DNA from: an uncultured Campylobacterota bacterium
GTDB lineage: Bacteria; Campylobacterota; Campylobacteria; Campylobacterales; Sulfurovaceae
NCBI GenBank assembly: GCA_937141405.1
Contig: CAKZQQ010000006.1
Location: 62,001 to 126,000 of the forward strand
Direction of reading: 5' to 3'
Length of the DNA stretch: 64,000 nt
Under the pieces are notes generated by a model that worked only from the letters and a program-made list of their open reading frames with translations, was not told the origin of the DNA and did not search any database. The translations under genes and the position numbers were made by a program. Shown here piece after piece: positions 2,211 to 62,006 of this stretch; the first letter of the stretch is position 1, and every line of letters starts with the position of its first letter.

Positions 2211-2699
2211 ATGAGAGATAAATTATCTAATTTTATGTGTGTTGGAGTTCAAAAGGCATGCACAACAACACTACACGATATCTTCAAACAACACTCTAAG
2301 ATATTTTTACCAAAGATTAAAGAGATAAAATTTTTTCAATTGGATGAGAAATTCGATAAAGGTATAGAGTATTATAAGAATGAATTTTTTAGAGACCTAA
2401 AAGAAAAGAAAATATTAGGAGAAATAGATTCGAAGTATATGTATTTTAGAAGTAAAATGATTAATAATTTAGTGCATGGTAAGAGTTTCATTGGACGTTT
2501 TGTCGAAAGATTCATTGTCTCTAAAATATTTCAAACAAAAATAATAAGTTATATTGATTTTAAAAACGAAGAATATTTTTTATATAAAAAGTTGTCTAGT
2601 AAGCAAAAAGAGATATTAACGAATAAGTATTTCGAGAATGATATGATTAAAACTTCACAGCTTATAGGAAGAGATTTGTTGGATTGGTTGAGAGCATGA
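2211..2699 (+). pseudogene. Sulfotransferase with internal deletion (remnant)
   Basis: The frame codes for 162 residues; intact family members, such as the one at 9135-10001, have about 290. The N-terminus keeps the 5'-phosphosulfate-binding loop, but as VGVQKACTTTLHDIFKQH with Cys where Gly is expected (KAGTT). The tail (SSKQKEILTNKYFENDMI...LGRDLLDWL style) matches the family's C-terminus. After the GEIDSKYMYF segment, the whole middle with the 3'-phosphate-binding motif (LRxPxxRAYSH) is missing. The frame stays open across the join, so a shortened protein could be made, but it lacks half of the PAPS-binding site and is probably inactive as a sulfotransferase. Confidence 0.75.
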
Positions 2700-2776
2700 A
2701 TGCTAAAACCGATATATTAGTGGTTGCATGCAGCGATAAAAAAGTACTGAACAGAATAAATGATAAAAAGATTTAA
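2696..2776 (+). other. 26-codon open frame overlapping the sulfotransferase stop and the wzx start
   Basis: An ATG overlapping the stop of the sulfotransferase remnant (ATGA) opens a 26-codon frame that runs into the wzx start at 2760. It begins MNAKTDILVVACSDKK. It could be the remnant of a deleted gene or a coupling leader that carries ribosomes to the wzx start, which has no clear Shine-Dalgarno sequence. It may equally be chance. Confidence 0.2.
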
Positions 2777-4073
2777 AAACAAACTCTCAACAGATGTGCA
2801 TTTTAGTGAGCTTTTTCATGGTTCTTCCATAGCCTTCTTTATGCATCTTGTAGGATTGGTTGTTGGGTATATTTTTACACTGCTTGTTGCAAGGTGGTAT
2901 GGAGCAGATACGATGGGGTTATATACGCTCTCACTTACCTTGCTTAATATTTTTGTAACCATCGGTACTTTTGGATTTGGCAGTGCACTTGTAAAATTTA
3001 TTGCTGATTACAATTATAATGATAAGCCCTATTTGGCAAAAGAGATATATAAAAAAGTGATTATTTTTGTTATCCCCCTTGGACTATTACTCTCTCTATT
3101 ATTTTATATTTTCACAGATTATTTGGCTTTAGAAATATTTGATAATTCAAAACTGATACCATATTTTCATATTGCCGTTTTTGGGGTGCTTCCATTTATT
3201 CTTTTGACGATTAATACAGCTTTTTTTCGGGGGGTAAAAAATATTAAACTGTTTGCTTTTTTGGACAAAGTAGCGATTTTTATCTTTACTCCAATTTTGC
3301 TCGCAATAGCATATTATGGTTTAAATTTGGAGGGGATAGCAACGATAATTTCTAGAGTAATTGCTATCCTGCTTTTGTTGATTATGAGTTATGTGGCTCT
3401 TAGACGATATCATTATATATTTCGCTCGAGTGTACAGAAATTATTGAGCTATCGAGATATATTTCGTGTATCACTTCCGATGTTGCTTACAAATTCTCTT
3501 GTGCTTGTAATGAGTTGGACTGATATCATTATGCTTGGAATTTTCACAGATGAAGCAGAAGTAGGAATCTATAATGTTATCATCAAACTTGCTATGCTTG
3601 CTACTATTGCATTAATGGCAATAAATACCATTGCCGGCCCTAAATTTTCAGAACTTTATAGTCGAGAAGATGTGCAAGGGCTTAAGAAAACAGCTCAAAA
3701 TGCTACACGAATGGTATTTTATAGTTCATTACCCATAATTATAATAATTATTTTTTTTGCAAAGTATATTTTGGGTATTTTTGGTCAGGAATTCACAGTG
3801 GGGGCATATGCTCTTTGGATATTGATGACAGGACAGTTCATCAGTGTATGTAGCGGACCGGTTATGGTTTTGCTCAATATGACAGGCAAACAAATACCAT
3901 TGAATGTTGTTATGTTGGTTGCAAGTATTCTCAATGTTGTACTAAACTATTTTCTTATACCCATCTATGGTATCGAAGGAGCTGCAATTGCTACAGCCAT
4001 TTCACTTATGTTTAATAGGATTGTGCCTGTGATTTTGGTGAGAAGATATTATGGTTTTTTTATGTTTAGGTAG
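2760..4073 (+). CDS. Wzx-like polysaccharide flippase (MOP superfamily)
   Basis: This 437-residue protein is almost entirely hydrophobic, with roughly 12 predicted membrane helices. It starts with the amphipathic MIKRFKNKLSTDVHFSEL segment and the GSSIAFFMHLVGLVVGYIF helix usual for polysaccharide-biosynthesis exporters. Members move undecaprenyl-linked glycan repeat units from the cytoplasmic to the periplasmic face of the inner membrane. Here it would supply the ligase/polymerase at 6756 and possibly PglB. The start lies inside a 26-codon frame and lacks an obvious ribosome binding site. A hairpin at 4073-4105 follows immediately. Confidence 0.88.
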   Translation: MIKRFKNKLSTDVHFSELFHGSSIAFFMHLVGLVVGYIFTLLVARWYGADTMGLYTLSLTLLNIFVTIGTFGFGSALVKFIADYNYNDKPYLAKEIYKKVIIFVIPLGLLLSLLFYIFTDYLALEIFDNSKLIPYFHIAVFGVLPFILLTINTAFFRGVKNIKLFAFLDKVAIFIFTPILLAIAYYGLNLEGIATIISRVIAILLLLIMSYVALRRYHYIFRSSVQKLLSYRDIFRVSLPMLLTNSLVLVMSWTDIIMLGIFTDEAEVGIYNVIIKLAMLATIALMAINTIAGPKFSELYSREDVQGLKKTAQNATRMVFYSSLPIIIIIIFFAKYILGIFGQEFTVGAYALWILMTGQFISVCSGPVMVLLNMTGKQIPLNVVMLVASILNVVLNYFLIPIYGIEGAAIATAISLMFNRIVPVILVRRYYGFFMFR

Positions 4074-4105
4074 TCTAAAAAACAAGGGCAAAATTGTTTT
4101 TAGAC
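4073..4105 (+). terminator. Hairpin after wzx, probable terminator
   Basis: GTCTAAAAAACA (4073-4084) pairs with TGTTTTTAGAC (4095-4105) with one bulged A around a 10-base loop. It begins at the last base of the wzx stop codon. It lacks a strong 3' T-run beyond the stem's own T5, but its position and the promoter that follows at about 4126 suggest a transcription-unit boundary. Confidence 0.5.
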
Positions 4106-4125
4106 CATTTAAATGCAAAAAAAGT

Positions 4126-4131
4126 TATAAT
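4126..4131 (+). promoter_or_regulatory. -10 box of a promoter for the second glycan operon
   Basis: A perfect TATAAT sits 32 bases before the ATG at 4164, directly after the wzx hairpin. The region before it is A/T-rich with no good -35, as is usual for sigma70 promoters in Campylobacterota. It would drive the tightly packed genes from 4164 to 12193. Confidence 0.5.
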
Positions 4132-4163
4132 AAAAACAATAAATAATAAAGGTAAGTCTTTAT

Positions 4164-5069
4164 ATGTTAAAATCAAATCTTTGTATTGTTGGAGCTGCAA
4201 AAGCCGGCACGACATCCTTATATAGTTACCTTAATAATCATCCAAAGATTAATGCATCAATTATCAAAGAACCCCATTTTTTTAGCGATGACATTCGATG
4301 CAAAGACATTAGCCCAAAGCGCAAAAAGAGAACCTGTTTTAATCAAGAGAAATACTTTGCAAAAAAAATATTAACTCCAAAACATATTGCTTATATAGAG
4401 TCTCAGGATAACTATCTTAAACTTTTTGACCTTAGAGAGGATTATAGCTATTTCTTAGATGCAAGTACTGAGTATCTCCCCTCAAAGAGTACTGCAAAAA
4501 ATATTTATGGTTTTAATAAAGATGCCAAGATTATCATCTCTCTCCGACACCCTGCAGAGAGAGCATATTCGCATTTTTTGATGGATTTGAGCGGTGGAAT
4601 GCTCAAGAGTAAAGATTTTATAAAAGAGATAGAGAGACAGAGAAATAAAAAAAATAGAAATACTAATGGCAATTTGTATATAGAAAGAAGCTTGTATGCT
4701 CAGTAGATTAAGCGGTATATGGACATATTTCCAAAAGAAAATATCATGATAGTATTCCAAGGTGAGTTAAATAGGGATACTCAAAAAATTATGGACGGGA
4801 TATTTGATTTTCTAGATCTAGATTCTATCAAAGTAGATATAGAAAAAAGAGAGAATACCGGCAAGGTTCCTAAAAATTTCAGACTCAACAATTTTATGAT
4901 GAAATTTGTCTTTTTAAGAGATTTTATACCTCAAATGATAAAAGATAAAGTAAAGCTTTTATTGCAGACTTCCCAAAAACAAAAAATGAGTAGTGCCGAG
5001 AGAGAGTATATGTTGAGGTTCTTTGAAGATGATATTAAATCATTAAAAAATTGTTTAATAAGGAATTAA
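4164..5069 (+). pseudogene. Sulfotransferase interrupted by one in-frame amber codon
   Basis: Two consecutive open stretches in the same frame (4164-4706 and, after the stop, 4707-5069) together make one about 300-residue sulfotransferase. The first has the 5'-PSB loop (VGAAKAGTTSLYSYL) and 3'-PB motif (LRHPAERAYSHFLMD). The second has the family's IKRYMDIFPKENIMIVF segment and C-terminus. A single TAG at 4704-4706 follows SLYAQ, where intact homologues read on as LYxEQ(I/V)KRY. A one-base change from CAG to TAG explains it, and no frameshift is needed. The gene is probably a recent pseudogene or is rescued by suppression or readthrough; reinitiation at the ATG of 4719 could only give a C-terminal fragment. 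Confidence 0.8.
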
Positions 5070-5073
5070 GTAA

Positions 5074-6063
5074 GTGGCTCGCTTGAAAGAGAATAAAAAG
5101 GTTTATGTGGTAATCCTTAATTATAATTGTTGGAAAGATACGATTGAGTGTTTAGAGAGTGTACTTAAAAGTGATTACGATAATTATCAAATAATAGTTG
5201 TTGATAACAATTCAACAGATAATTCTTTGAGTCATATTATTAACTGGGCAGAAGGAAAACAAGGGATCAAATACACTGAAAACCTAAGCCTAGAAAGCCT
5301 GATCAAGCCACCCACTATGAAACCCTCGAAATATCTTTTCTACACAAAGGAGAAAGAGGTTGATGTAGTAAATCCATTGGTATTTATACAATCAGGAGAA
5401 AATAGAGGATTTGCTGCCGGAAATAATATTGCCTTAAAATATATTTTAGCAAACAACAATGATGGTTATATATGGTTTTTAAATCCAGATACCGTAATAG
5501 AAACACACTGTATAAGAGGTTTTGTAAATAAGATAAATAATCACAATAAAGTAATCTTAGGTAGTGTTATAAAGTATTACAAAGATCCTAGGAGAGTCTT
5601 GTTTTATGGAGGGCTTAGAGTCCATAAATTATTTCATGGAATCGAGAGAGTAGTAGATCGCCACAATATAGATAAAATAGATGCTATTTCCGGTGCATCA
5701 CTTTTTATCTCTGTCGCAAGCGTGCGACAGTTAGGTTTGCTACCTGAAGAGTATTTTATGTATTGGGAGGAGGTCCACTACTGCACGCAGGCAAAGAAGA
5801 TGGGCTATAAATTTGATATAGTAGAGCAAGAAAGTTGCTATGTTTATGACAAGACGGGTACAAATGCAAATTCAATGTACTTGAAGCAATATTTATATAT
5901 ATTGAATGGATTAAAATATTACAGATTTTTCTTTTCAAAAAGATTTTCTTTAATCTATTTTTCTTGTATATTGAAGTATATTCTAGCATTTGTAAGAAGT
6001 GATGCTAACACGAGGAAAGCGATTGGAAATGCTTTGAGAGATTATGCACTCGGAGGTAAATAA
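5074..6063 (+). CDS. Family 2 glycosyltransferase (rhamnosyltransferase-like)
   Basis: This 329-residue GT-A enzyme has the N-terminal VVILNYNCWKDTIECLESVL and the VVDNNSTDNS nucleotide-sugar-binding segment, then ENRGFAAGNNIAL and WFLNPDT as the DxD-type metal site, and EEYFMYWEEVHYCTQAKKMGY near the acceptor region. It would add one sugar to the lipid-linked repeat unit in the cytoplasm. The start is GTG at 5074, with AAGGA about 9 bases upstream and only 4 bases after the sulfotransferase stop. The sugar specificity cannot be read from the sequence. Confidence 0.88.
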   Translation: MARLKENKKVYVVILNYNCWKDTIECLESVLKSDYDNYQIIVVDNNSTDNSLSHIINWAEGKQGIKYTENLSLESLIKPPTMKPSKYLFYTKEKEVDVVNPLVFIQSGENRGFAAGNNIALKYILANNNDGYIWFLNPDTVIETHCIRGFVNKINNHNKVILGSVIKYYKDPRRVLFYGGLRVHKLFHGIERVVDRHNIDKIDAISGASLFISVASVRQLGLLPEEYFMYWEEVHYCTQAKKMGYKFDIVEQESCYVYDKTGTNANSMYLKQYLYILNGLKYYRFFFSKRFSLIYFSCILKYILAFVRSDANTRKAIGNALRDYALGGK

Positions 6064-6064
6064 A

Positions 6065-6754
6065 GTGCTAAGGAACATCATAGAATTGATAATTTCATCA
6101 ATTAAAGGTTCGGAGTATAAAATTGACAAAGAAGTCTCATTAGGATATCTGTTGTCCCTGTCAATGCAAAGATTCGTGATGTTGATAAGAGGAGGTGTTA
6201 TTTTTAAAACATTTAATCTTGTTTTTATAGGCTCAAACGTAACGATTAAAGAGAAATCAAAAATTAGATTTCAAAAAGGTTTGACGATCCAAAAAGATTG
6301 TTATATTGATGCGTTATCTAGGTTAGGTCTAAGGCTTGGTAAAAATGTGAGTTTTGCGCGAGGATGTGCGATCGAATGCACGGGGTCATTAAATCATATA
6401 GGACGCGGTTTATCTGTAGGCAATAATGTAGGTTTTAGTACAAACTGTTTTTTAGGATGTGCAGGTGGCATAGAGATTGGTGATGATACAATTATCGGAA
6501 ATTATGTAACACTTCACTCTGAAAATCATAATTATGATGACTTGAAAGTGGCTATTCGACTTCAAGGAGTTACTCGTAAAGGAATCAAGGTGGGTAAAAA
6601 TTGCTGGATAGGCGCAAAAGCCACGATACTAGATGGTGTGACGATAGAAGATGGGTGCATTATAGCGGCAGGAGCATTGGTGCAAAAAGGAACATATGAA
6701 GCCAACTGCATTTATGGTGGTATTCCGGCAAAAAAAATAGGCTCTAGATTTTAG
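6065..6754 (+). CDS. Hexapeptide-repeat O-acyltransferase (probably acetyltransferase)
   Basis: About 229 residues with left-handed beta-helix repeats (GRGLSVGNNVGFSTNCFLGCAG and on) and the catalytic His region LHSENHNYDD, ending in the ALVQKGTYEAN...YGGIPAKKIG closure typical of sugar or maltose-type acetyltransferases. It probably O-acetylates a glycan residue. I prefer the GTG at 6065 because GGAGG lies 8 bases before it and it directly follows the upstream stop; an in-frame ATG at 6044 would overlap that gene by 20 bases. The acyl group and acceptor are unknown. Confidence 0.82.
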   Translation: MLRNIIELIISSIKGSEYKIDKEVSLGYLLSLSMQRFVMLIRGGVIFKTFNLVFIGSNVTIKEKSKIRFQKGLTIQKDCYIDALSRLGLRLGKNVSFARGCAIECTGSLNHIGRGLSVGNNVGFSTNCFLGCAGGIEIGDDTIIGNYVTLHSENHNYDDLKVAIRLQGVTRKGIKVGKNCWIGAKATILDGVTIEDGCIIAAGALVQKGTYEANCIYGGIPAKKIGSRF

Positions 6755-6755
6755 G

Positions 6756-8012
6756 ATGATTTCTTTATTTCGTAATAACAACTACCTATATACACTCATT
6801 GTCTTTTTTGTGATTTTGTTTTTCGGAAAGTACCTTCACTGGAAATATCTTTCTGTACCAATTGGATTATTTGTTTTTTGTTATATGATCTATAATCGCT
6901 CTATTTTACCAAAGAGTTTAGATCTCTATGCGATACCATTAATCTTAGTTTTTCTTGGTTTATTCATGATAGATTTTGAAAACGGTACTCGGAATATATT
7001 GAGAGATATCTCCTATTATCTCAATCCCATTTTTCTATTGAGCCTCTCTTTTATAATGGCTTATAGGATTAAAAATATAGGTGAAGTTTTTCTGATAATG
7101 ATAACCTTAGGGGTTCTTTTTGCAATTATTCATATAGGGTGTATCGCATATGACCCTAGCTATCTTTTTGCAGAAAATATATTTCGCGATAAAGTGTTAA
7201 GTTCATATATCGTTCCACTTGCTTTGGCGATACTTTTGATAGATAGAAAATATGACTTTTTGAAAATAGGTAACAAGTTATTTTTTGTTTTTTTCGTAAT
7301 CCTTTTATCTTCGATGATCTTGAATTTTTCAAGAACTTTTATAGTCGTATCTTTCATCTTTCTTTTTTTTGGATTCGGTATTTTAAGAAATCGCATAAAG
7401 TTATTTATAGGATTTGCGTTGGTAACTATACTCGGATCTTTATTGATGTTTTGTGTGGTAACATATTTTCAAGATGCTCCAGAGGAAAGCATAATGCGGA
7501 AAATTGCAAAAAGTGTGCAAGAAACAATACCTCAAAATTACCATAAAAAAAAGGATATATGGCAATATTGGCGGGGCTATGAAACATATCGGGCTTACCT
7601 TGCTTTTAAAAATGATGGAGGTGTAAAGCAGAAGATATTTGGTTACGGTTTTGGTAAAAGCGCTAACCTTGGGCTTGAGATAAAACTAGGTGAAAATTGG
7701 TTTAGAAAGATTAGTGTTTTTCACAATGGTTACATAAATATTTTACTCAAAACAGGTATTCTTGGGCTCCTTCTATATCTTCTTTATTGGCTACTTATTA
7801 TCATAAGCAATTATAAATTCTTGCTATATGGAGACAATGAGCAACTTATTATAGGCTCACTTTTGATCGCTACAGCTTTTAGCTTTCTATTTATGACGCT
7901 TGTTGTTTCCGGATGGTTAAATAATAGTTCAAATGCACCGTTTTTGATGCTTATGGGAATGTTATATAATCTCAAATATCGTTTAGACATCACAAAGGAT
8001 CAATGTGGATAA
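6756..8012 (+). CDS. O-antigen ligase/polymerase family membrane protein (WaaL/Wzy-like)
   Basis: A 418-residue protein of about 10-12 membrane helices with one large periplasmic loop (about residues 235-325). The loop ends in the family motif FHNGYINILLKTGILGLLLY, where the His is characteristic of Wzy_C/WaaL enzymes. It either polymerises repeat units or ligates glycan to an acceptor such as lipid A; the sequence does not separate these. It begins 1 base after the previous stop and overlaps the next gene by 8 bases, so it is embedded in one operon. Confidence 0.8.
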   Translation: MISLFRNNNYLYTLIVFFVILFFGKYLHWKYLSVPIGLFVFCYMIYNRSILPKSLDLYAIPLILVFLGLFMIDFENGTRNILRDISYYLNPIFLLSLSFIMAYRIKNIGEVFLIMITLGVLFAIIHIGCIAYDPSYLFAENIFRDKVLSSYIVPLALAILLIDRKYDFLKIGNKLFFVFFVILLSSMILNFSRTFIVVSFIFLFFGFGILRNRIKLFIGFALVTILGSLLMFCVVTYFQDAPEESIMRKIAKSVQETIPQNYHKKKDIWQYWRGYETYRAYLAFKNDGGVKQKIFGYGFGKSANLGLEIKLGENWFRKISVFHNGYINILLKTGILGLLLYLLYWLLIIISNYKFLLYGDNEQLIIGSLLIATAFSFLFMTLVVSGWLNNSSNAPFLMLMGMLYNLKYRLDITKDQCG

Positions 8013-9105
8013 AAAAATAGTTTTCGTACATCTCCTCAATGATTATAGTGGAAGCCCCAAGGTTCTTTCGCAGGTTATAGATGTTACCAAAAAGCACAAT
8101 ATTGATTATGAACTCTTTATCGGCAATAAAAAAGGAGAAGGATTTTTATCTCTCTTCAAATCGCAGAGTTATTTTTACAAAAGATCAAACTATAGGATTT
8201 TGACACTCTTTTCTTATCTTTTTTCACAAGTTGTTCTTTTTTTTAAGATACTAAAATATAAAGATAAAGATGCATACATCTACATCAATACTATGCTTCC
8301 TTTTGGAGCTGCACTTGCAGGAAAGGTTATGGGGAAAGAGGTTATCTATCATATCCATGAGATATCGGTTACTCCAAATTTGCTCAAAGGATTTTTAAGA
8401 TTTATCATCCAAAAGACAGCTGCAAAAGTCTTTTTTGTATCTAAAGTATTTATGGAGCTGGAGCCGTTTAAAAATATCGAGCAAAGAGTGATTTATAACT
8501 CTTTACCCGATCTGTTTATGCAAGATGCAAAGCCATTTCAATACAAGTTTGATAGAGAAAAATTTAATGTACTTATGGTTTGCTCCATGAAGCGATATAA
8601 AGGAGTTTTTGAGTTTATAAAAATTGCTTCGGCTTGTAGCAAAGAGAAGCATATCAAATTTACTTTGATTTTAAATGTAAAAACAGATGATGAGATAAAC
8701 AGATATTTTGAAGAGATTAAGATCCCCGAAAACATCACTATGCTCAATGTTCAAAAAAATACTATTTTTTATTATAAGCGGGCTAATCTCTTATTGAATC
8801 TTGCAAGAGCTGATGAGTGGGTGGAGACATTCGGATTAACGATAATCGAAGCTATGGCATTTGGTATTCCTGCCATTGTTCCTCCTGTTGGCGGCCCTGC
8901 AGAGATAGTCACAGATAATCAGGAAGGCTATCAGATATCATCATACAATATCCAAGAGATTAGCCAAAAGATAATCAGCCTCTCAAAAGATAGAGAAAAA
9001 TGTATGCAATTATCGCAAGCAGCAAAAAAGAGAAGTAGTTTCTTTAGTGAAGAGAAGTTTGAAGAAGAGATATTATCGGGATTATCAGATGATTTTGGAA
9101 GATAA
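8005..9105 (+). CDS. GT4-family glycosyltransferase (GT-B fold)
   Basis: This 366-residue enzyme ends with the retaining GT4 signature EWVETFGLTIIEAMAFGIPAI followed by VGGPAEIVTD, where the ExxxxxxxE motif contacts the sugar nucleotide. The N-terminal half has the Rossmann-like KIVFVHLLNDYSGSPKVLSQ. It starts with GTG at 8005, overlapping the ligase gene by 8 bases, with AAAGGA upstream. It would act on the cytoplasmic face during repeat-unit assembly. The donor sugar is unknown. Confidence 0.87.
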   Translation: MDKKIVFVHLLNDYSGSPKVLSQVIDVTKKHNIDYELFIGNKKGEGFLSLFKSQSYFYKRSNYRILTLFSYLFSQVVLFFKILKYKDKDAYIYINTMLPFGAALAGKVMGKEVIYHIHEISVTPNLLKGFLRFIIQKTAAKVFFVSKVFMELEPFKNIEQRVIYNSLPDLFMQDAKPFQYKFDREKFNVLMVCSMKRYKGVFEFIKIASACSKEKHIKFTLILNVKTDDEINRYFEEIKIPENITMLNVQKNTIFYYKRANLLLNLARADEWVETFGLTIIEAMAFGIPAIVPPVGGPAEIVTDNQEGYQISSYNIQEISQKIISLSKDREKCMQLSQAAKKRSSFFSEEKFEEEILSGLSDDFGR

Positions 9106-9134
9106 AAAGTTTCTAAAAAAAAGGAGGAAACTTC

Positions 9135-10001
9135 ATGTTGCCTAATTTTTTAATAGTGGGTGCTCCAAAAGCAGGAACAACATCTCTGCATCAGTACCTC
9201 TCACAACATCCGGAAATTTTTATGAGCAACCCTAAAGAGCTTAATTTTTTTTCAAATCAAGAGATTAAAGAGCAAGAGCTGTATTATGATAATTTCAGAA
9301 TAAATAGTTTAGAAAGATATAAAGACATTTTTGCAGGCTCAATAGGGGAAAAAGCTATAGGAGAGGCAAGTGTGTCATATCTTTTTTACCCAAAGACACC
9401 TAAAAAGATAAAAGAGATTATTCCAGACGCAAAAATAATCATACTTTTGAGAGAGCCTATAAGCCGTGCATATTCGCATTATTTGATGGACTATAGATTG
9501 GGATATGTTAATCTCTCTTTTGATGATGTTGTTTTTAAAAGAAAAAAAGATAAAAATATAGATCTTTTTTACCAGCAGTATATCTTTTTGGGACTCTATT
9601 ATGAGCAAGTCAAACGATATATTGATATTTTTGGAAAAGATAGCGTAAGGATATATTTCCAAGATGATTTCAAAAATGATCCTGCGCATATACTTCTTGA
9701 TGTCTATAATTTTTTAGGTGTAGATTCTGGCTTTTGTCATGAAATAGAAAAAGAACATAATGTTTTTTCTATGCCTAAAAACAAGATTATATATTTACTC
9801 TATAGATCTTCTTTACGTTCTTTAATCGCATCGCTGCTACCGAGTAACATCAAAGAAAAAATTATAGAGATAACATTTGAAAAAAAACAAAAACCGAAAA
9901 TGAGTAAACAGACCAAAAAATATTTGTATGATATATATAGGGATGATATTGTAAACTTAGAAAAACTTATAGGGGTGGATTTGAATTCATGGAAACTATA
10001 A
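9135..10001 (+). CDS. Sulfotransferase, intact
   Basis: This 288-residue protein has both PAPS-binding elements: the 5'-PSB loop IVGAPKAGTTSLHQYLSQHP near the N-terminus and the 3'-PB motif LREPISRAYSHYLMD (R106 to S114). The family's RYIDIFGKDSVRIYFQDD and C-terminal region are complete. It would transfer sulfate from PAPS to a sugar hydroxyl of the glycan made by this locus. A strong AAGGAGG lies 8-9 bases before the ATG. It is the only one of three sulfotransferase genes here that looks functional. The stop overlaps the next gene by 13 bases. Confidence 0.88.
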   Translation: MLPNFLIVGAPKAGTTSLHQYLSQHPEIFMSNPKELNFFSNQEIKEQELYYDNFRINSLERYKDIFAGSIGEKAIGEASVSYLFYPKTPKKIKEIIPDAKIIILLREPISRAYSHYLMDYRLGYVNLSFDDVVFKRKKDKNIDLFYQQYIFLGLYYEQVKRYIDIFGKDSVRIYFQDDFKNDPAHILLDVYNFLGVDSGFCHEIEKEHNVFSMPKNKIIYLLYRSSLRSLIASLLPSNIKEKIIEITFEKKQKPKMSKQTKKYLYDIYRDDIVNLEKLIGVDLNSWKL

Positions 10002-12193
10002 GCAAAAAAAATATCATTTCTATCATTGATCATGTGGGTAAAAAAGCAGGGATGGATTACTATTCCGGTTCACTTGCTACAGGTCTTGCTAAGATTGGTT
10101 GTGATGTTGCTGTTTATAGTAATTTTGTAGGTTTAGATACCGATAGGGTTAGTTATTTTAAATACTTTGATAGTCATTCAAGTAGAGGACTCATTGTAAA
10201 AATATGGAAATTTTTTTCTGCTGCTTTTAAAGCAGCGAAGGGAGCGAGGAAAAGGAAAAGTGACCTTGTTATCATGCATCTTTTTTCAGCCAATATGGTT
10301 ACTTTCTTATTATTTTTGATTCCTAAAATTTTTAGGCTCAATATCGTAGTCATAGCTCATGATGTTTCAAGTTTTATAAATGGAGACAATAGATTTTTGC
10401 AAAAAATTATCTACAATGTTTTTGCTAATCAAATAGTTGTTCATAATGGGTTTTCAAAAAAAATGCTTTTAAAAAGTGTGAATATTAAAGATCCTTCTAA
10501 AATCGCCATCATAAAACATGGTGGCTACATGGAGCATATCAAACATAGATATACAAAAAATGAAGCCAGAAAAGAGCTTGGATTAAGTGAAGAGGGAAAA
10601 TATATACTCTTTTTTGGGCAGATAAAAAGAGTCAAGGGGCTTGATATCTTGATTAAAGCACTTAAAGAGACTCCGGAAGATATTAAGCTCATTATTGCAG
10701 GGAAACCACAAAGAGATGATATTGCATATTATGATAGATTGATAGATGAGCTTGCTTTACAAGATAGAGTTATAAAAATAATCCGATATATAGAAGATGA
10801 CGAGAGGGAGAAACTTTTTTTTGCAGCGGATGTCAATGTTTTGCCTTATAAGATTATCTATCAAAGCGGTGTGTTATTGATGGCAATGAGTTATGGTTTG
10901 CCGGTTATTGCTTCTAATTTAGAGCCCAATAAAGAGATTATCAGAGATAATGAAAATGGAATGTTTTTTAAAAATGAGGATGTAAAATCACTATCTCAAA
11001 AAATAAATCTATTTTTTGGCGAGAATGCTTTACGCAAGAAGATAGTCAAAAGCTCTATTGAAACAATAAAAGATCAATATGGTTGGGATACAATATCTGC
11101 AAAATATCTGCAATTGATAAAAAAAAGAGTAAGCATCATAGGCATTGTTGGTTTACCTGCACAGTATGGGGGGTTTGAGACACTTGCGCAGTATCTAGTC
11201 CGTTATTTGAGAGATAAGTATGATTTTACTGTGTTTTGCAGTGCAAAAAGTTATGAAGAGAGACTTGAAAGTTACGACGGTGCAAAATTACATTATGTAA
11301 ACTTGAATGCAAATGGGGCACAAAGTATCCCCTATGATATCATTTCGATTTTTAAAGCTTTACGATTGTCAGATACACTTTTAGTGCTAGGGGTGTCTGG
11401 TTGTACTATTTTGCCTTTCATCAAATTTTTTAGTCGTAAAAAGATAGTTGTCAATATAGACGGTTCAGAGTGGAAGCGAGAGAAGTGGGGAAGGTTTGCT
11501 CGTGTATTTTTAAAATTTTCTGAAAAGCTTGCAGTTAAATGGGCAGATATTATCATTAGTGACAATAGGGCAATACAAGACTATGTCTTTGACGAATATG
11601 GGGTAGAGAGCAAACTTATAACATATGGGGCTGATCATGTAAAAAAATTGCCAATCAGTGATGCTCTATTGGAAAAATATCCCTTTTTGAAAAACAGGTA
11701 TGCCTTTAGTATTTGTAGGATTGAACCAGAAAATAATATTCATCTTATCTTAGATGCTTTTAGCCAATACAGCAATATGGACTTAGTGATTGTTGGCAAT
11801 TGGCAAAATAGTAAATATAGCCGTTCTTTAAAAGTAAATTATTCACAATATGCTCATATCCATCTTCTTGAGGCTATCTATGATAGTGATATTTTGGGAG
11901 AGATTCGAAGCAATTGCTATCTTTACCTTCATGGACATAGCGCAGGTGGAACAAACCCTTCTTTGGTAGAAGCCATGTATCTTGGTTTGCCGATATTTTC
12001 TTTTGATGTTTCATACAATAGAGTGAGTACACAAGCAAAAGCGCGTTATTTTAAAAATGCAGTTGAACTTGCAACATTACTGCAAAATCTAGATACACAA
12101 AAGCTTAAAGATATTGCATCTGATATGAGAGACATTGCACACAGAGACTATATTTGGGAAAAAATAGCACATAAGTATGCCGATATATTTTAA
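9989..12193 (+). CDS. Two-domain glycosyltransferase: GT4 fused to a DUF1972/GT4 enzyme
   Basis: This 734-residue protein contains two complete GT-B units. Residues about 1-375 are a GT4 (FFGQIKRVKGLDILIKAL, then YKIIYQSGVLLMAMSYGLP and ASNLEPNKEII). From about residue 378 a second enzyme begins with the DUF1972 N-terminus VSIIGIVGLPAQYGGFETLA and carries FSICRIEPENNIHLILDAF, GHSAGGTNPSLVEAMYLGLP and FDVSYNR. Each half is normally a separate protein, so one chain may add two successive sugars. It overlaps the sulfotransferase by 13 bases and is the last gene before the pglB promoter. Confidence 0.85.
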   Translation: METISKKNIISIIDHVGKKAGMDYYSGSLATGLAKIGCDVAVYSNFVGLDTDRVSYFKYFDSHSSRGLIVKIWKFFSAAFKAAKGARKRKSDLVIMHLFSANMVTFLLFLIPKIFRLNIVVIAHDVSSFINGDNRFLQKIIYNVFANQIVVHNGFSKKMLLKSVNIKDPSKIAIIKHGGYMEHIKHRYTKNEARKELGLSEEGKYILFFGQIKRVKGLDILIKALKETPEDIKLIIAGKPQRDDIAYYDRLIDELALQDRVIKIIRYIEDDEREKLFFAADVNVLPYKIIYQSGVLLMAMSYGLPVIASNLEPNKEIIRDNENGMFFKNEDVKSLSQKINLFFGENALRKKIVKSSIETIKDQYGWDTISAKYLQLIKKRVSIIGIVGLPAQYGGFETLAQYLVRYLRDKYDFTVFCSAKSYEERLESYDGAKLHYVNLNANGAQSIPYDIISIFKALRLSDTLLVLGVSGCTILPFIKFFSRKKIVVNIDGSEWKREKWGRFARVFLKFSEKLAVKWADIIISDNRAIQDYVFDEYGVESKLITYGADHVKKLPISDALLEKYPFLKNRYAFSICRIEPENNIHLILDAFSQYSNMDLVIVGNWQNSKYSRSLKVNYSQYAHIHLLEAIYDSDILGEIRSNCYLYLHGHSAGGTNPSLVEAMYLGLPIFSFDVSYNRVSTQAKARYFKNAVELATLLQNLDTQKLKDIASDMRDIAHRDYIWEKIAHKYADIF

Positions 12194-12233: not shown

Positions 12234-12239
12234 TATAAT
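12234..12239 (+). promoter_or_regulatory. -10 box for pglB
   Basis: TTGTTATAATTG contains a perfect -10 20 bases before the ATG at 12260. If used, transcription starts near 12246, which excludes the in-frame TTG at 12239 as the start codon. Confidence 0.5.
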
Positions 12240-12259
12240 TGTTCAAAAATAGAGATATA

Positions 12260-14398
12260 ATGAACCAAAAAATATCAATGCAAAATACACTTTTTCTTGT
12301 CGGAGTAGCTTTTATTTTTAGCTTTGCTATGCGACTTATTTGGGTTTATCAATTTAATGGTTATGAGCCATATATGTTCAACGGTCAATTTATGATTAGT
12401 ACAAATGACGGCTATCTCTATGCGGAAATTGCTAGAGATATTATTGCCGGAAATGAGCTTCATTACAGAGATGAAACAGCTTTAGCAATCTCTTATATGA
12501 CTGTTTTTTGTACGCAAATACTAAATGTTCCATTTGAGAGCGCAATTTTTTATATGAGTGCACTTTTCGGTTCTTTGATTGTTGTTCCTCTTGTCTTGAT
12601 TGGTAAAGCTTTAGAAAAAGTAGAAGTCGGCTTCATTGCAGCTCTTATTGCAAGTATTACATTAAGTTATTACAATCGAACGATGGTGGGGTATTTTGAT
12701 ACTGATATGCTCAATATAGTATTGCCAACACTTCTTATGTGGGCACTTTTGGTTGGGATTAAAAGTAAAGAACCCCGTTATATTCTCTACACTATTTTGC
12801 TAATCATACTATATCGCTGGTGGTATCCACAAAGCTTTTCTCTAGAGTTTGCTTTTGCTGGTATAGTTGTTCTCTACGCTATTTATAAGTATTATAAACA
12901 AAAAGAGGATGTATCTTTCGAATTTACACTGCTCGGTTTTATGTTACTTGCTATGGTTGGTGCGGATGGTCCGCTTGGACTAGGCGTTATTGCGCTCCTT
13001 TATATTTTTTATAAGGCAGGGTATTTAGAGAGATATACTATATATTTTTTCTTAGCTTCGGTAGGCATCTTTCTCCTTGCAGGTGGATTTGATCCTATTT
13101 TTGCTAAATTAAAAGGGTATATTTTTCAAAATTTAGCTAATATGGATGTCACGAGCCTTGAACTGCACTATTATGGAGCTATGCAGACAGTTAAAGAATC
13201 AAGCAGGATACCTTTTGATATATTTGCTAATCGTATCAGTGGACATGAAGTAGCATTTATGCTATCGATTGTAGGCTATATTTGGCTTTGTTTTAAACAC
13301 AAAAATATGTTGTTATCACTCCCTCTTGTAGGACTTGGATTTTTAGCATACTTTGCAGGCCTACGTTTTACAATCTATGCTGTCCCTCCTATGGCACTTG
13401 GCATAGGATATTTGATCTATAGAATTTCTAATTTTACTCCAAAACCAATAAATTATTTTTTAATGATACTGTTTACAGTCTTGGCGCTTACCCCGAACAT
13501 AATACATATCATTGGTTATAAAATCCCGACAGTTTTTAATAAAAACGAGGTGAAAGTTCTTGATCAAATGAAAAGCATTGCCGGCAGAGACGATTATATC
13601 GTTTCATGGTGGGATTATGGTTATCCTATTCGCTATTATAGTGATGTAAAGACAGTCCTGGATGGAAAATATCATACAGGAGCAGCGAATTTTTCATTTA
13701 GTTATGCCATGAAAAATTCACAAGAAATAGCTGCAGATATTTTGCGTGCTGATGTGGAGTATGAAGAGCAGCGAATTAAGAAATATTTAAAATACAAAGA
13801 TGCTATACAATCAAAGGAAGAAACGCTTGACCCAAACATTGTTCGTATGATTTTGGAGAGCGGATTTAAAGATGCCAATGATTTTTTAGCATATGTTGAG
13901 AGCGGAGGTGAAATCAAAATGCCTCCAAAAAGCAGAGAAGTTTATCTATTTTTACCAAATGATATGTTAGGCATTTTCCCGACTATTTCCAAATTTTCAG
14001 AGATTAATTTAATGAGCGGAGAGATGGAGAAAGAACCATTTTTCTTTATGACGCGTTATATGCAAGACAAAGGCAATTATATTGATTTAGGAAGAGGTGT
14101 TGCACTTGATAAGAATAGTACATCTGTATTGTTCGGCGATACTAAAGTTCCATTAAAGTATTTTATAACAACAAAATATGATAACGATATGCAGCTGCAC
14201 ATAAGCTCAGAAAAGATAAACCCTGATGGCGAATTATATGCTGTTTTTATGAGTGATTACCGACAGCTTTTACTGCTTGATGAAGAGATGTTTAACTCAA
14301 CATTCGTACAACTTTTTGTGCTAGAAAAATATGATGAAAAATATTTCCAACCGGTCATTGTAACGCCTTTTGCAAAAGTCTATAAGCTGATGAAATAA
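12260..14398 (+). CDS. pglB: PglB-type oligosaccharyltransferase (STT3 family)
   Basis: About 712 residues, close to Campylobacter PglB (713). The first two-thirds is a 13-helix membrane domain; the rest is a periplasmic domain with the STT3 signature WWDYGYPIRYYSDVKTVLDG. Acidic residues that bind metal and glycan are in place: NDG in the first periplasmic loop, and YFDTDML. The enzyme transfers a lipid-linked glycan en bloc to Asn in D/E-X-N-X-S/T sites of periplasmic proteins. It has its own promoter at the end of the glycan cluster. ATG 12260 is preferred over TTG 12239, which overlaps the -10. No pglA/C/D/E/F/K homologues are in view, so its glycan donor may be the product of this locus or may be made elsewhere. 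Confidence 0.92.
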   Translation: MNQKISMQNTLFLVGVAFIFSFAMRLIWVYQFNGYEPYMFNGQFMISTNDGYLYAEIARDIIAGNELHYRDETALAISYMTVFCTQILNVPFESAIFYMSALFGSLIVVPLVLIGKALEKVEVGFIAALIASITLSYYNRTMVGYFDTDMLNIVLPTLLMWALLVGIKSKEPRYILYTILLIILYRWWYPQSFSLEFAFAGIVVLYAIYKYYKQKEDVSFEFTLLGFMLLAMVGADGPLGLGVIALLYIFYKAGYLERYTIYFFLASVGIFLLAGGFDPIFAKLKGYIFQNLANMDVTSLELHYYGAMQTVKESSRIPFDIFANRISGHEVAFMLSIVGYIWLCFKHKNMLLSLPLVGLGFLAYFAGLRFTIYAVPPMALGIGYLIYRISNFTPKPINYFLMILFTVLALTPNIIHIIGYKIPTVFNKNEVKVLDQMKSIAGRDDYIVSWWDYGYPIRYYSDVKTVLDGKYHTGAANFSFSYAMKNSQEIAADILRADVEYEEQRIKKYLKYKDAIQSKEETLDPNIVRMILESGFKDANDFLAYVESGGEIKMPPKSREVYLFLPNDMLGIFPTISKFSEINLMSGEMEKEPFFFMTRYMQDKGNYIDLGRGVALDKNSTSVLFGDTKVPLKYFITTKYDNDMQLHISSEKINPDGELYAVFMSDYRQLLLLDEEMFNSTFVQLFVLEKYDEKYFQPVIVTPFAKVYKLMK

Positions 14399-60822: not shown

Positions 60823-62006
60823 AAGAGATGAAGATACTAGTGATTGTAAATATTTTTTGTGTCTCAGCAATGATGGCATTTTTATCGGTAGTAGGACCGA
60901 TTACTAGAGAGTTAAATCTGCAAGAGTGGCATGCGGGTGTTACCGTTGCTATTGCGGGAGTTTTGTGGGTATTTTTTTCAAGATATTGGGGAAAGAAAAG
61001 CGACAAAACAGGTAGAAAACCAATTCTATTCTTAGGTGTCTTGGGTGTTGCGATCGGTTATTTTGCGCTTGCTGTCTTTGTAGATTATGCTTTAATATCT
61101 CCGCCTGTTATTTTTATTTCACTTGCTGTTCTGGTCATAACAAGAGGCATTATCGGCGTATTTTATGCAGCAATTACTCCTGTATCAAATGCTTTAATCG
61201 CAGATGAGATAGATGAGAAGCATCGAACACCTTACATAGCAAAACTTGGAGCATCAAACGGTATGGGTATGGTGCTTGGTCCGGCTCTAGGCGGTATGCT
61301 TGCTATCTACGGGTTGGCAGTACCTCTGTATGCTTTTGCTCTATTGCCGCTTATCGCAGCTTTACTCATTTTCTTTTTTATACCGACCGTGAAGATACAT
61401 AAAACAAAAGAGCCTCCAAGCCCTAAGATTTTAGACCCGAGACTTAGAGTGCCGATGCTTGCGGCTTTTCTAACAATGTATGCCGTTGTAACCTCTCAGG
61501 TGTGTTTGGGGTTTTTTGTTATTGATATTTTGAAGTTTGATATGACAAAGAGTGCTCAGGTAACCGGCTATATACTTTCTTCTGTCGGCGTAATGTTCAT
61601 TATCGCTCAGATACTTGTAAGTAGATTCAAAAATGTTACGCCTGTTCATTGGCTTCAATACGGTGCTCTAATCGCAATGTTCGGGTTTGTTTTCGTCTCC
61701 TTGAGCACAACACAACTTTTTTTAACAATCGGATTTTGCATTTCTACTTTTGGTATGGGGTTTATATTTCCTGCTTTTCAAACATTGGCAGTAAATTTAG
61801 TTGATAGAGAGGAGAGAGGTGCTGCTTCGGGTACCGTTTCTGCGGCGCAAGGACTAGGAATGATAGTTGGGCCGTTGGCGAGCACTTTTCTCTACGAGAT
61901 AAGTCCTATAACTCCATTTGCATTTGCAGCACTTGCATTTGGAGGGTTGTTATTTATCTCTTTTAAAGAGCTTAGAAGGGACAAGATAGAAGGTTGTATC
62001 GGATAA
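60819..62006 (+). CDS. MFS transporter
   Basis: 395 residues, 12 predicted helices, with motif A in the loop 2-3 (SRYWGKKSDKTGRKPILF) and GPALGGMLAIYG as motif C, typical of drug:H+ antiporters. Overlap with the RND gene (ATGA) puts it in the same Fur-linked operon, so siderophore or metabolite export is plausible. It is convergent with the ABC exporter, 28 bases away. Confidence 0.87.
   Translation: MKEMKILVIVNIFCVSAMMAFLSVVGPITRELNLQEWHAGVTVAIAGVLWVFFSRYWGKKSDKTGRKPILFLGVLGVAIGYFALAVFVDYALISPPVIFISLAVLVITRGIIGVFYAAITPVSNALIADEIDEKHRTPYIAKLGASNGMGMVLGPALGGMLAIYGLAVPLYAFALLPLIAALLIFFFIPTVKIHKTKEPPSPKILDPRLRVPMLAAFLTMYAVVTSQVCLGFFVIDILKFDMTKSAQVTGYILSSVGVMFIIAQILVSRFKNVTPVHWLQYGALIAMFGFVFVSLSTTQLFLTIGFCISTFGMGFIFPAFQTLAVNLVDREERGAASGTVSAAQGLGMIVGPLASTFLYEISPITPFAFAALAFGGLLFISFKELRRDKIEGCIG

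Follow-up and report, generated by a model that had tools for sequence, protein, structure and literature searches.

A cluster predicted to build a sulfated surface polysaccharide in a Sulfurovaceae bacterium carries one intact and two damaged sulfotransferase genes

Introduction

Does a member of the Campylobacterota decorate its surface with a sulfated glycan, and what has become of the three sulfotransferase genes in the locus that would build it? These questions are raised by a stretch of 64,000 nucleotides (the window) from the marine-type genome of an uncultured bacterium of the family Sulfurovaceae, order Campylobacterales (assembly GCA_937141405.1, contig CAKZQQ010000006.1, positions 62,001 to 126,000 of the forward strand). 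An initial annotation described three sulfotransferase genes in one glycan locus, here called ST1 (2211-2699), ST2 (4164-5069) and ST3 (9135-10001), all on the + strand. ST1 was said to have lost its centre, ST2 to be interrupted by an amber codon and ST3 to be intact, and Pfam matches and alignments bear out all three descriptions and the positions given. Judging from gene content, we consider it very likely that a cluster some 25-30 kb long, whose 3' half lies in the window, directs synthesis of a sulfated surface polysaccharide of the Wzx/Wzy type that probably contains rhamnose. The proposal of a sulfated-glycan locus is upheld by three lines of sequence evidence: a sulfotransferase fold with motifs for binding 3'-phosphoadenosine-5'-phosphosulfate (PAPS), a complete cassette for PAPS synthesis immediately upstream, and a genome in which neither PAPS reductase nor sulfite reductase is detectable.

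Results

ST3 is a predicted PAPS-dependent carbohydrate sulfotransferase

ST3 encodes a protein of 288 amino acids that matches the Pfam family Sulfotransfer_1 (PF00685) with an E-value of 7e-17 and 62.1 bits, the curated cut-off being 22, over domain positions 2-248 of 255. It keeps K12 in the 5'-phosphosulfate loop as well as R106 and S114 of the motif for binding the 3'-phosphate, and all residues that are invariant in the family, as defined from an alignment of 20 sequences, are present. A sequence search of the PDB returned a bacterial sulfotransferase from Alicyclobacillus acidocaldarius (3rnl) over the whole length (180 bits, E = 6e-52), in agreement with the fold. An AlphaFold2 model computed with 20 homologues reached a predicted local distance difference test score (pLDDT) of 87.2 and a predicted template modelling score of 0.84; the homologue alignment was needed, as the model without it reached a pLDDT of only 36. 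Compared with 3rnl, the model gave a Foldseek E-value of 2e-20 and, in VIA-align, a Z-score of 31.6 with a root mean square deviation of 1.9 over 238 aligned residues and about 39% structure-aligned identity. The next matches were heparan sulfate N- and 3-O-sulfotransferases at Z-scores of 24-26 (1nst, 26.1; NDST1, about 26). These enzymes (PDB 1nst, 1t8t and 3uan) share with ST3 the fold and the layout of PAPS binding at an identity of 20-24%; vertebrate heparan sulfate itself is not expected as a substrate in this bacterium. Sequence and model together predict that ST3 is a PAPS-dependent carbohydrate sulfotransferase that transfers sulfate. The placement within the sulfotransferase fold comes from the model for ST3 and from sequence alone for ST1 and ST2.

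A PAPS cassette adjoins the window in a genome without detectable PAPS reduction

The 5' edge of the window, contig position 62001, falls inside the cluster, and the genes continue beyond it. On the same strand we found, in order, rmlA, rmlC, rmlD, rmlB, an epimerase-like gene, a glycosyltransferase family 2 (GT2) gene, cysQ, cysC, cysD, cysN and a gene for a fusion of DUF2061, a small membrane domain, with an adenosine 5'-phosphosulfate (APS) kinase, after which the cluster runs into the window. The cassette from cysQ to the second APS kinase occupies L003:15433-19918 (+ strand), and its last gene, the DUF2061-APS kinase fusion (L003:19193-19918, contig C6:61193-61918), lies just 5' of the window. 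CysQ, CysC, CysD and CysN pass the curated NCBIfam cut-offs, and ST3 and the cassette belong to one run of + strand genes. These assignments show a cassette predicted to make PAPS through the ATP sulfurylase CysD/CysN, the kinase CysC and a second, membrane-anchored APS-kinase-like protein, with CysQ clearing the by-product 3'-phosphoadenosine-5'-phosphate. They likewise show RmlACDB as the predicted source of dTDP-L-rhamnose. The DUF2061-APS kinase accompanies a regular CysC in nearly all cassettes that we collected, and 11 of its sequences from the order have a mean column identity of 84%.

CysDNC and CysQ are also enzymes of sulfate assimilation, and the cassette might serve just that, lying beside a glycan locus by chance, with sulfation minor or absent. 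Neither of the enzymes that mark a sulfate assimilation operon was detected in this genome, however. The only PAPS_reduct match in the whole genome was CysD, and no NIR_SIR domain, the mark of sulfite reductase, was found, although the same searches worked on control genomes. The PAPS is therefore probably dedicated to sulfation and not to cysteine synthesis. As many relatives, too, have the cassette grouped with glycan genes and sulfotransferases, we regard ordinary assimilation as an extremely unlikely explanation.

ST1 and ST2 look inactive and are not recent duplicates

ST2 is a single reading frame, stopped by TAG at 4704-4706 and continued in the same frame at 4707-5069. Its two parts match ST3 residues 4-157 (E = 3e-20) and 159-279 (E = 5e-16) with no change of frame. 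The N-terminal part (4164-4706), which matches Sulfotransfer_3 (E = 5e-8), retains the lysine of the phosphosulfate loop and the arginine and serine of the 3'-phosphate site.

ST1 matches ST3 over residues 2-85 (E = 3e-12), and its last 35 or so residues match the ST3 C-terminus weakly (pairwise E = 0.003). A family hidden Markov model (HMM) of homologues from the order aligns ST1 only at positions 22-113 and 243-278 of 289, the second segment again being weak (E = 0.014). The centre has gone without a frameshift. R106, P108 and S114 (ST3 numbering), all invariant in the 20-sequence alignment, are missing, so that the R/S motif for the 3'-phosphate is absent, and KACTT stands in place of KAGTT in the PAPS loop. 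With 14 bits against a cut-off of 27, ST1 would not be recognised by Pfam alone. The best ST1 matches among 399 genomes of the order were full-length sulfotransferases, none of them centre-less, and a search for plasmid relatives of the ST1-ST2 stretch found none. An open reading frame (ORF) of 26 codons at 2696-2776 (+ strand; MNAKTDILVVACSDKKVLNRINDKKI) overlaps the ST1 stop by ATGA and extends into the start of wzx; no convincing homologue of it was found in the fetched loci. It is probably the stump of a coupled gene, a hint that ST1 and wzx once had a further gene between them.

By their sequences, ST1 and ST2, two of the three sulfotransferases, thus look inactive, in which case sulfation of the glycan should be lower than it was in the ancestor. 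Could the lesions instead be errors of assembly or consensus, with all three genes intact in the living strain? In favour of this, the genome (1.75 Mb) is a draft of eight contigs, and the lesions are single events, with the frame open elsewhere and just one stop in ST2. This explanation nevertheless seems quite improbable to us: no errors that disturb the frame are seen, ST1 has also a changed residue in its PAPS loop and lacks invariant residues, and the stump of a lost gene follows it.

It might also be argued that the broken genes still work, ST2 as two chains or through amber readthrough and ST1 in the role of a short protein that regulates or binds the acceptor. Both parts of ST2 do retain motifs, and an ATG at 4719 opens a frame of 116 amino acids. 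Readthrough is countered by the use of TAG as an ordinary stop, terminating six of the 35 long ORFs in the window, for which reason we also rejected a reassignment of this codon, and by the lack of a suppressor among the window's five tRNAs. A working ST1 would have to dispense with the R/S motif common to all homologues, and would do so without any centre-less relative in the 399 genomes. Residual function of the broken genes is therefore very doubtful.

The aligned identities among ST1, ST2 and ST3 are about 26-35%. The three are therefore distinct enzymes of one superfamily and not decaying copies of one gene, and we rejected recent duplication. Their description as copies is misleading; alignment with each other and with homologues, which also located the lesions, shows a shared superfamily. 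Phase variation at homopolymers was rejected as the cause of the lesions as well, because G/C tracts in the locus do not exceed six and because ST2 was broken by a nonsense codon, ST1 by an in-frame loss. Since no close orthologues of the broken genes were found, the ages of the lesions are not measurable.

The neighbouring genes fit a Wzx/Wzy pathway

The other genes of the cluster, all on the + strand, include those for glycosyl transfer, flipping and polymerisation, and family matches confirm the pyruvyl transferase, Wzx and Wzy/ligase genes that had been noticed near the sulfotransferases. A protein with an FrhB/FdhB domain (1-909, starting 5' of the window; FrhB_FdhB_C, E = 6e-19) adjoins a polysaccharide pyruvyl transferase family protein (906-2117; PS_pyruv_trans, E = 2e-31). 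The latter scores far below the NCBIfam equivalog cut-offs for CsaB (73 versus 213 bits) and WcaK (59 versus 399 bits), so that a pyruvylated glycan, as suggested in the initial annotation, is a prediction at the level of family annotation. A Wzx-type flippase (2760-4073; Polysacc_synt, E = 2e-22) separates ST1 and its stump from ST2. Between ST2 and ST3 lie a GT2 glycosyltransferase (5074-6063; Glycos_transf_2, E = 2e-20), a hexapeptide-repeat acyltransferase (6044-6754; Hexapep, E = 7e-18), a Wzy/O-antigen ligase family protein (6756-8012; Wzy_C, E = 6.5e-9) and a glycosyltransferase family 4 (GT4) protein (8005-9105; Glycos_transf_1, E = 3e-27). As a second, better-scoring Wzy_C protein is encoded elsewhere in the genome, in an apparent lipopolysaccharide core region, the Wzy_C protein of the cluster is more likely a polymerase. 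The end of ST3 overlaps by 13 bases with a gene for a double GT4 glycosyltransferase with DUF1972 (9989-12193). This protein of 734 residues joins two GT4 units, and its C-terminal half, the DUF1972 part, resembles the rhamnosyltransferase Cps2T below the equivalog cut-off. The last gene of the series encodes a PglB/STT3 oligosaccharyltransferase (12239-14398; STT3-PglB_core, E = 7e-37) with a WWDYG motif in the translation.

In the pathway that we propose, ST3 would act in the cytoplasm, taking sulfate from PAPS and placing it on a hydroxyl (or amine) group of an undecaprenyl-linked repeat unit. Wzx would then flip the sulfated unit and Wzy polymerise it, and ST1 and ST2 may formerly have sulfated other positions. 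The finished chain may end up on lipid A, in a capsule or, via PglB, on protein.

The sole initiating transferase of the Bac_transf type in the genome is encoded on another contig. Beside it, on contig C5, lies a gene for a protein of 256 residues (L170:2110-2880) with sulfotransferase-like motifs by eye (FVGLPFSASSA..., VVRDP); we rejected it as a fourth sulfotransferase, as neither Pfam nor the family HMM supports it.

PglB and the glycan locus vary among relatives

We wondered whether PglB might be the enzyme that receives the glycan. The cluster would then be a pgl locus making a sulfated N-linked glycan. The PglB gene comes directly behind that of the last glycosyltransferase, and no second PglB/STT3 protein, or other match to an oligosaccharyltransferase, was found in the genome. 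PglB shares 69% identity with that of one member of the genus (G004) and only 32-35% with those of nine others, although the adjoining GltX is 73-86% identical across the genus (86% in G004), as if pglB had been swapped with its glycan. Several further genomes of the genus, however, have pglB beside gltX without a matching sulfotransferase cluster, so that adjacency alone says little for N-glycosylation, and the presence of a Wzy_C polymerase suggests a long chain. Compared with the Campylobacter pgl locus, the present cluster has PglB adjacent and adds Wzx/Wzy, rml, PAPS and sulfotransferase genes. Taken together, we consider an N-glycan rather unlikely, and a little less likely again is its extension to a bacterial sulfated N-glycan, placed on asparagines by PglB, whose charge is tuned by variable loss of sulfotransferases between strains.

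By the same comparisons, pglB and its glycan locus may have been exchanged jointly. G004, the nearest relative by PglB, has another gene set upstream of pglB, with no sulfotransferase in the 1.7 kb there. GC content is 26-34% in the cluster genes of the window versus 41% in gltX, and this AT-richness and the differing gene sets in relatives fit a replaceable glycan locus. The initial annotation had read the graded decay of the sulfotransferases as a sign of rapid change of the surface antigen. This reading is weak: the data show two inactive-looking sulfotransferases and a differing set of genes upstream of pglB in the nearest relative, but the sulfotransferases are not copies of one gene and their lesions cannot be dated. 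Rapid antigen change is plausible but unproven. The sole sulfotransferase match of G004 (L063:4884-5783) is intact and lies among housekeeping genes beside serS, without a glycan cluster.

Similar loci are common in the order and have counterparts in other marine bacteria

Animals, algae and some marine bacteria are well-known producers of sulfated glycans. The Campylobacterota include Campylobacter, Helicobacter and many hydrothermal-vent chemolithotrophs, and we found no report of a sulfated glycan of this kind from them in the open-access literature. A mention of sulfotransferases in a Sulfurospirillum paper was rejected, since it concerns COG2897/COG0607, which we take to be rhodanese-type COGs. 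That such glycans are rarely described in this group, as the initial annotation had it, therefore holds for the literature, but the genes are not rare: Sulfotransfer_1 matches occur in 50 of the 399 genomes of the order and in 26 of its 87 genera. CysC matched strongly (E below about 1e-58) in 76 of the 399, namely in 41 of the 50 genomes with a sulfotransferase versus 35 of about 350 others (Fisher test, about 1e-25, ignoring relatedness). In 21 of those 41 the sulfotransferase lies within 30 kb of cysC. We limited the co-occurrence analysis to strong CysC because the wider APS_kinase count (195 of 399) is mixed with weak matches and short proteins, the latter presumably Cj1415-like capsule kinases.

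A scan of contigs with ST3 alone as query found no relatives, and the conserved DUF2061-APS kinase was used instead. It returned 80 loci, from Sulfurimonas, Sulfurovum, Hydrogenimonas, Nautiliaceae, Nitratifractor, Sulfuricurvum, Malaciobacter and Arcobacter as well as from Cycloclasticus, Methylophaga and Flavobacteriales; this count is not independent of the survey above, as the two partly share genomes. Genes of the rml set are frequent neighbours of the cassette, and an ST3-family gene is present as well in 20 of the 51 loci that span at least 12 kb. Sulfurovum sp. GLR145 (L141) repeats the order rmlACDB, cysDN, kinase, cysC, cysQ, wzx, sulfotransferase, GT2, and like layouts were found in Sulfurimonas, Sulfurovum, Hydrogenimonas, Nautiliaceae and Malaciobacter.

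Two marine bacteria offer chemically defined counterparts. Vibrio sp. KMM 8419 makes a capsule with sulfated rhamnose, as shown by nuclear magnetic resonance, and carries dTDP-rhamnose genes, cysC/cysN/cysD and three sulfotransferase genes in one cluster; its authors regard PAPS genes and sulfotransferases inside a polysaccharide cluster as a hallmark of sulfated polysaccharide synthesis (PMC11641403). The present cluster shares all these genes, together with glycosyltransferases. In contrast, the Vibrio cluster comprises about 80 genes, exports its capsule through an ABC transporter and holds the cys genes as second copies, whereas ours has Wzx/Wzy, no detected assimilation set, a DUF2061-APS kinase and two broken sulfotransferases out of three. 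For Cobetia marina KMM 1449, the structure of a sulfated capsule has been determined chemically (PMC11766843). As here, genes for PAPS, cysQ among them, are combined with rhamnose genes and a sulfotransferase gene in one cluster; the Cobetia cluster differs in its fused cysN/cysC, its kps export and a sulfate permease within the cluster. The design is thus known from other marine bacteria and seems unreported in this group, where its genes are common.

Several points weigh against a sulfated polysaccharide as the product. In this strain it is predicted from genes. The nearest characterised relatives of ST3 act on amino-sugar chains, and the title of the 3rnl entry names no substrate. The genome is 98% complete, so the absence of reductases is not absolute proof. 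Finally, many cassette loci have no ST3-family gene in the stretch examined, and the cassette may therefore also feed other families of sulfotransferases.

As roughly one in eight of the order's genomes carries a sulfotransferase, usually together with the PAPS cassette, a negatively charged, sulfated envelope may be common among its marine members. Cultured strains, among them Malaciobacter halophilus and Sulfurimonas indica, allow a direct test of this idea. Moreover, a genome in which PAPS reduction is undetected would be a clean system, in which the PAPS supply could be removed and cysteine synthesis left untouched.

Beyond the order, relatives of the DUF2061-APS kinase at 63-75% identity, mostly accompanied by cysDNCQ, occur in marine Gammaproteobacteria (Cycloclasticus, Methylophaga) and in Flavobacteriales (L105, L109, L116, L121, L124, L126, L135 and L152-L154). 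Their sequences suggest that the cassette has been transferred between phyla.

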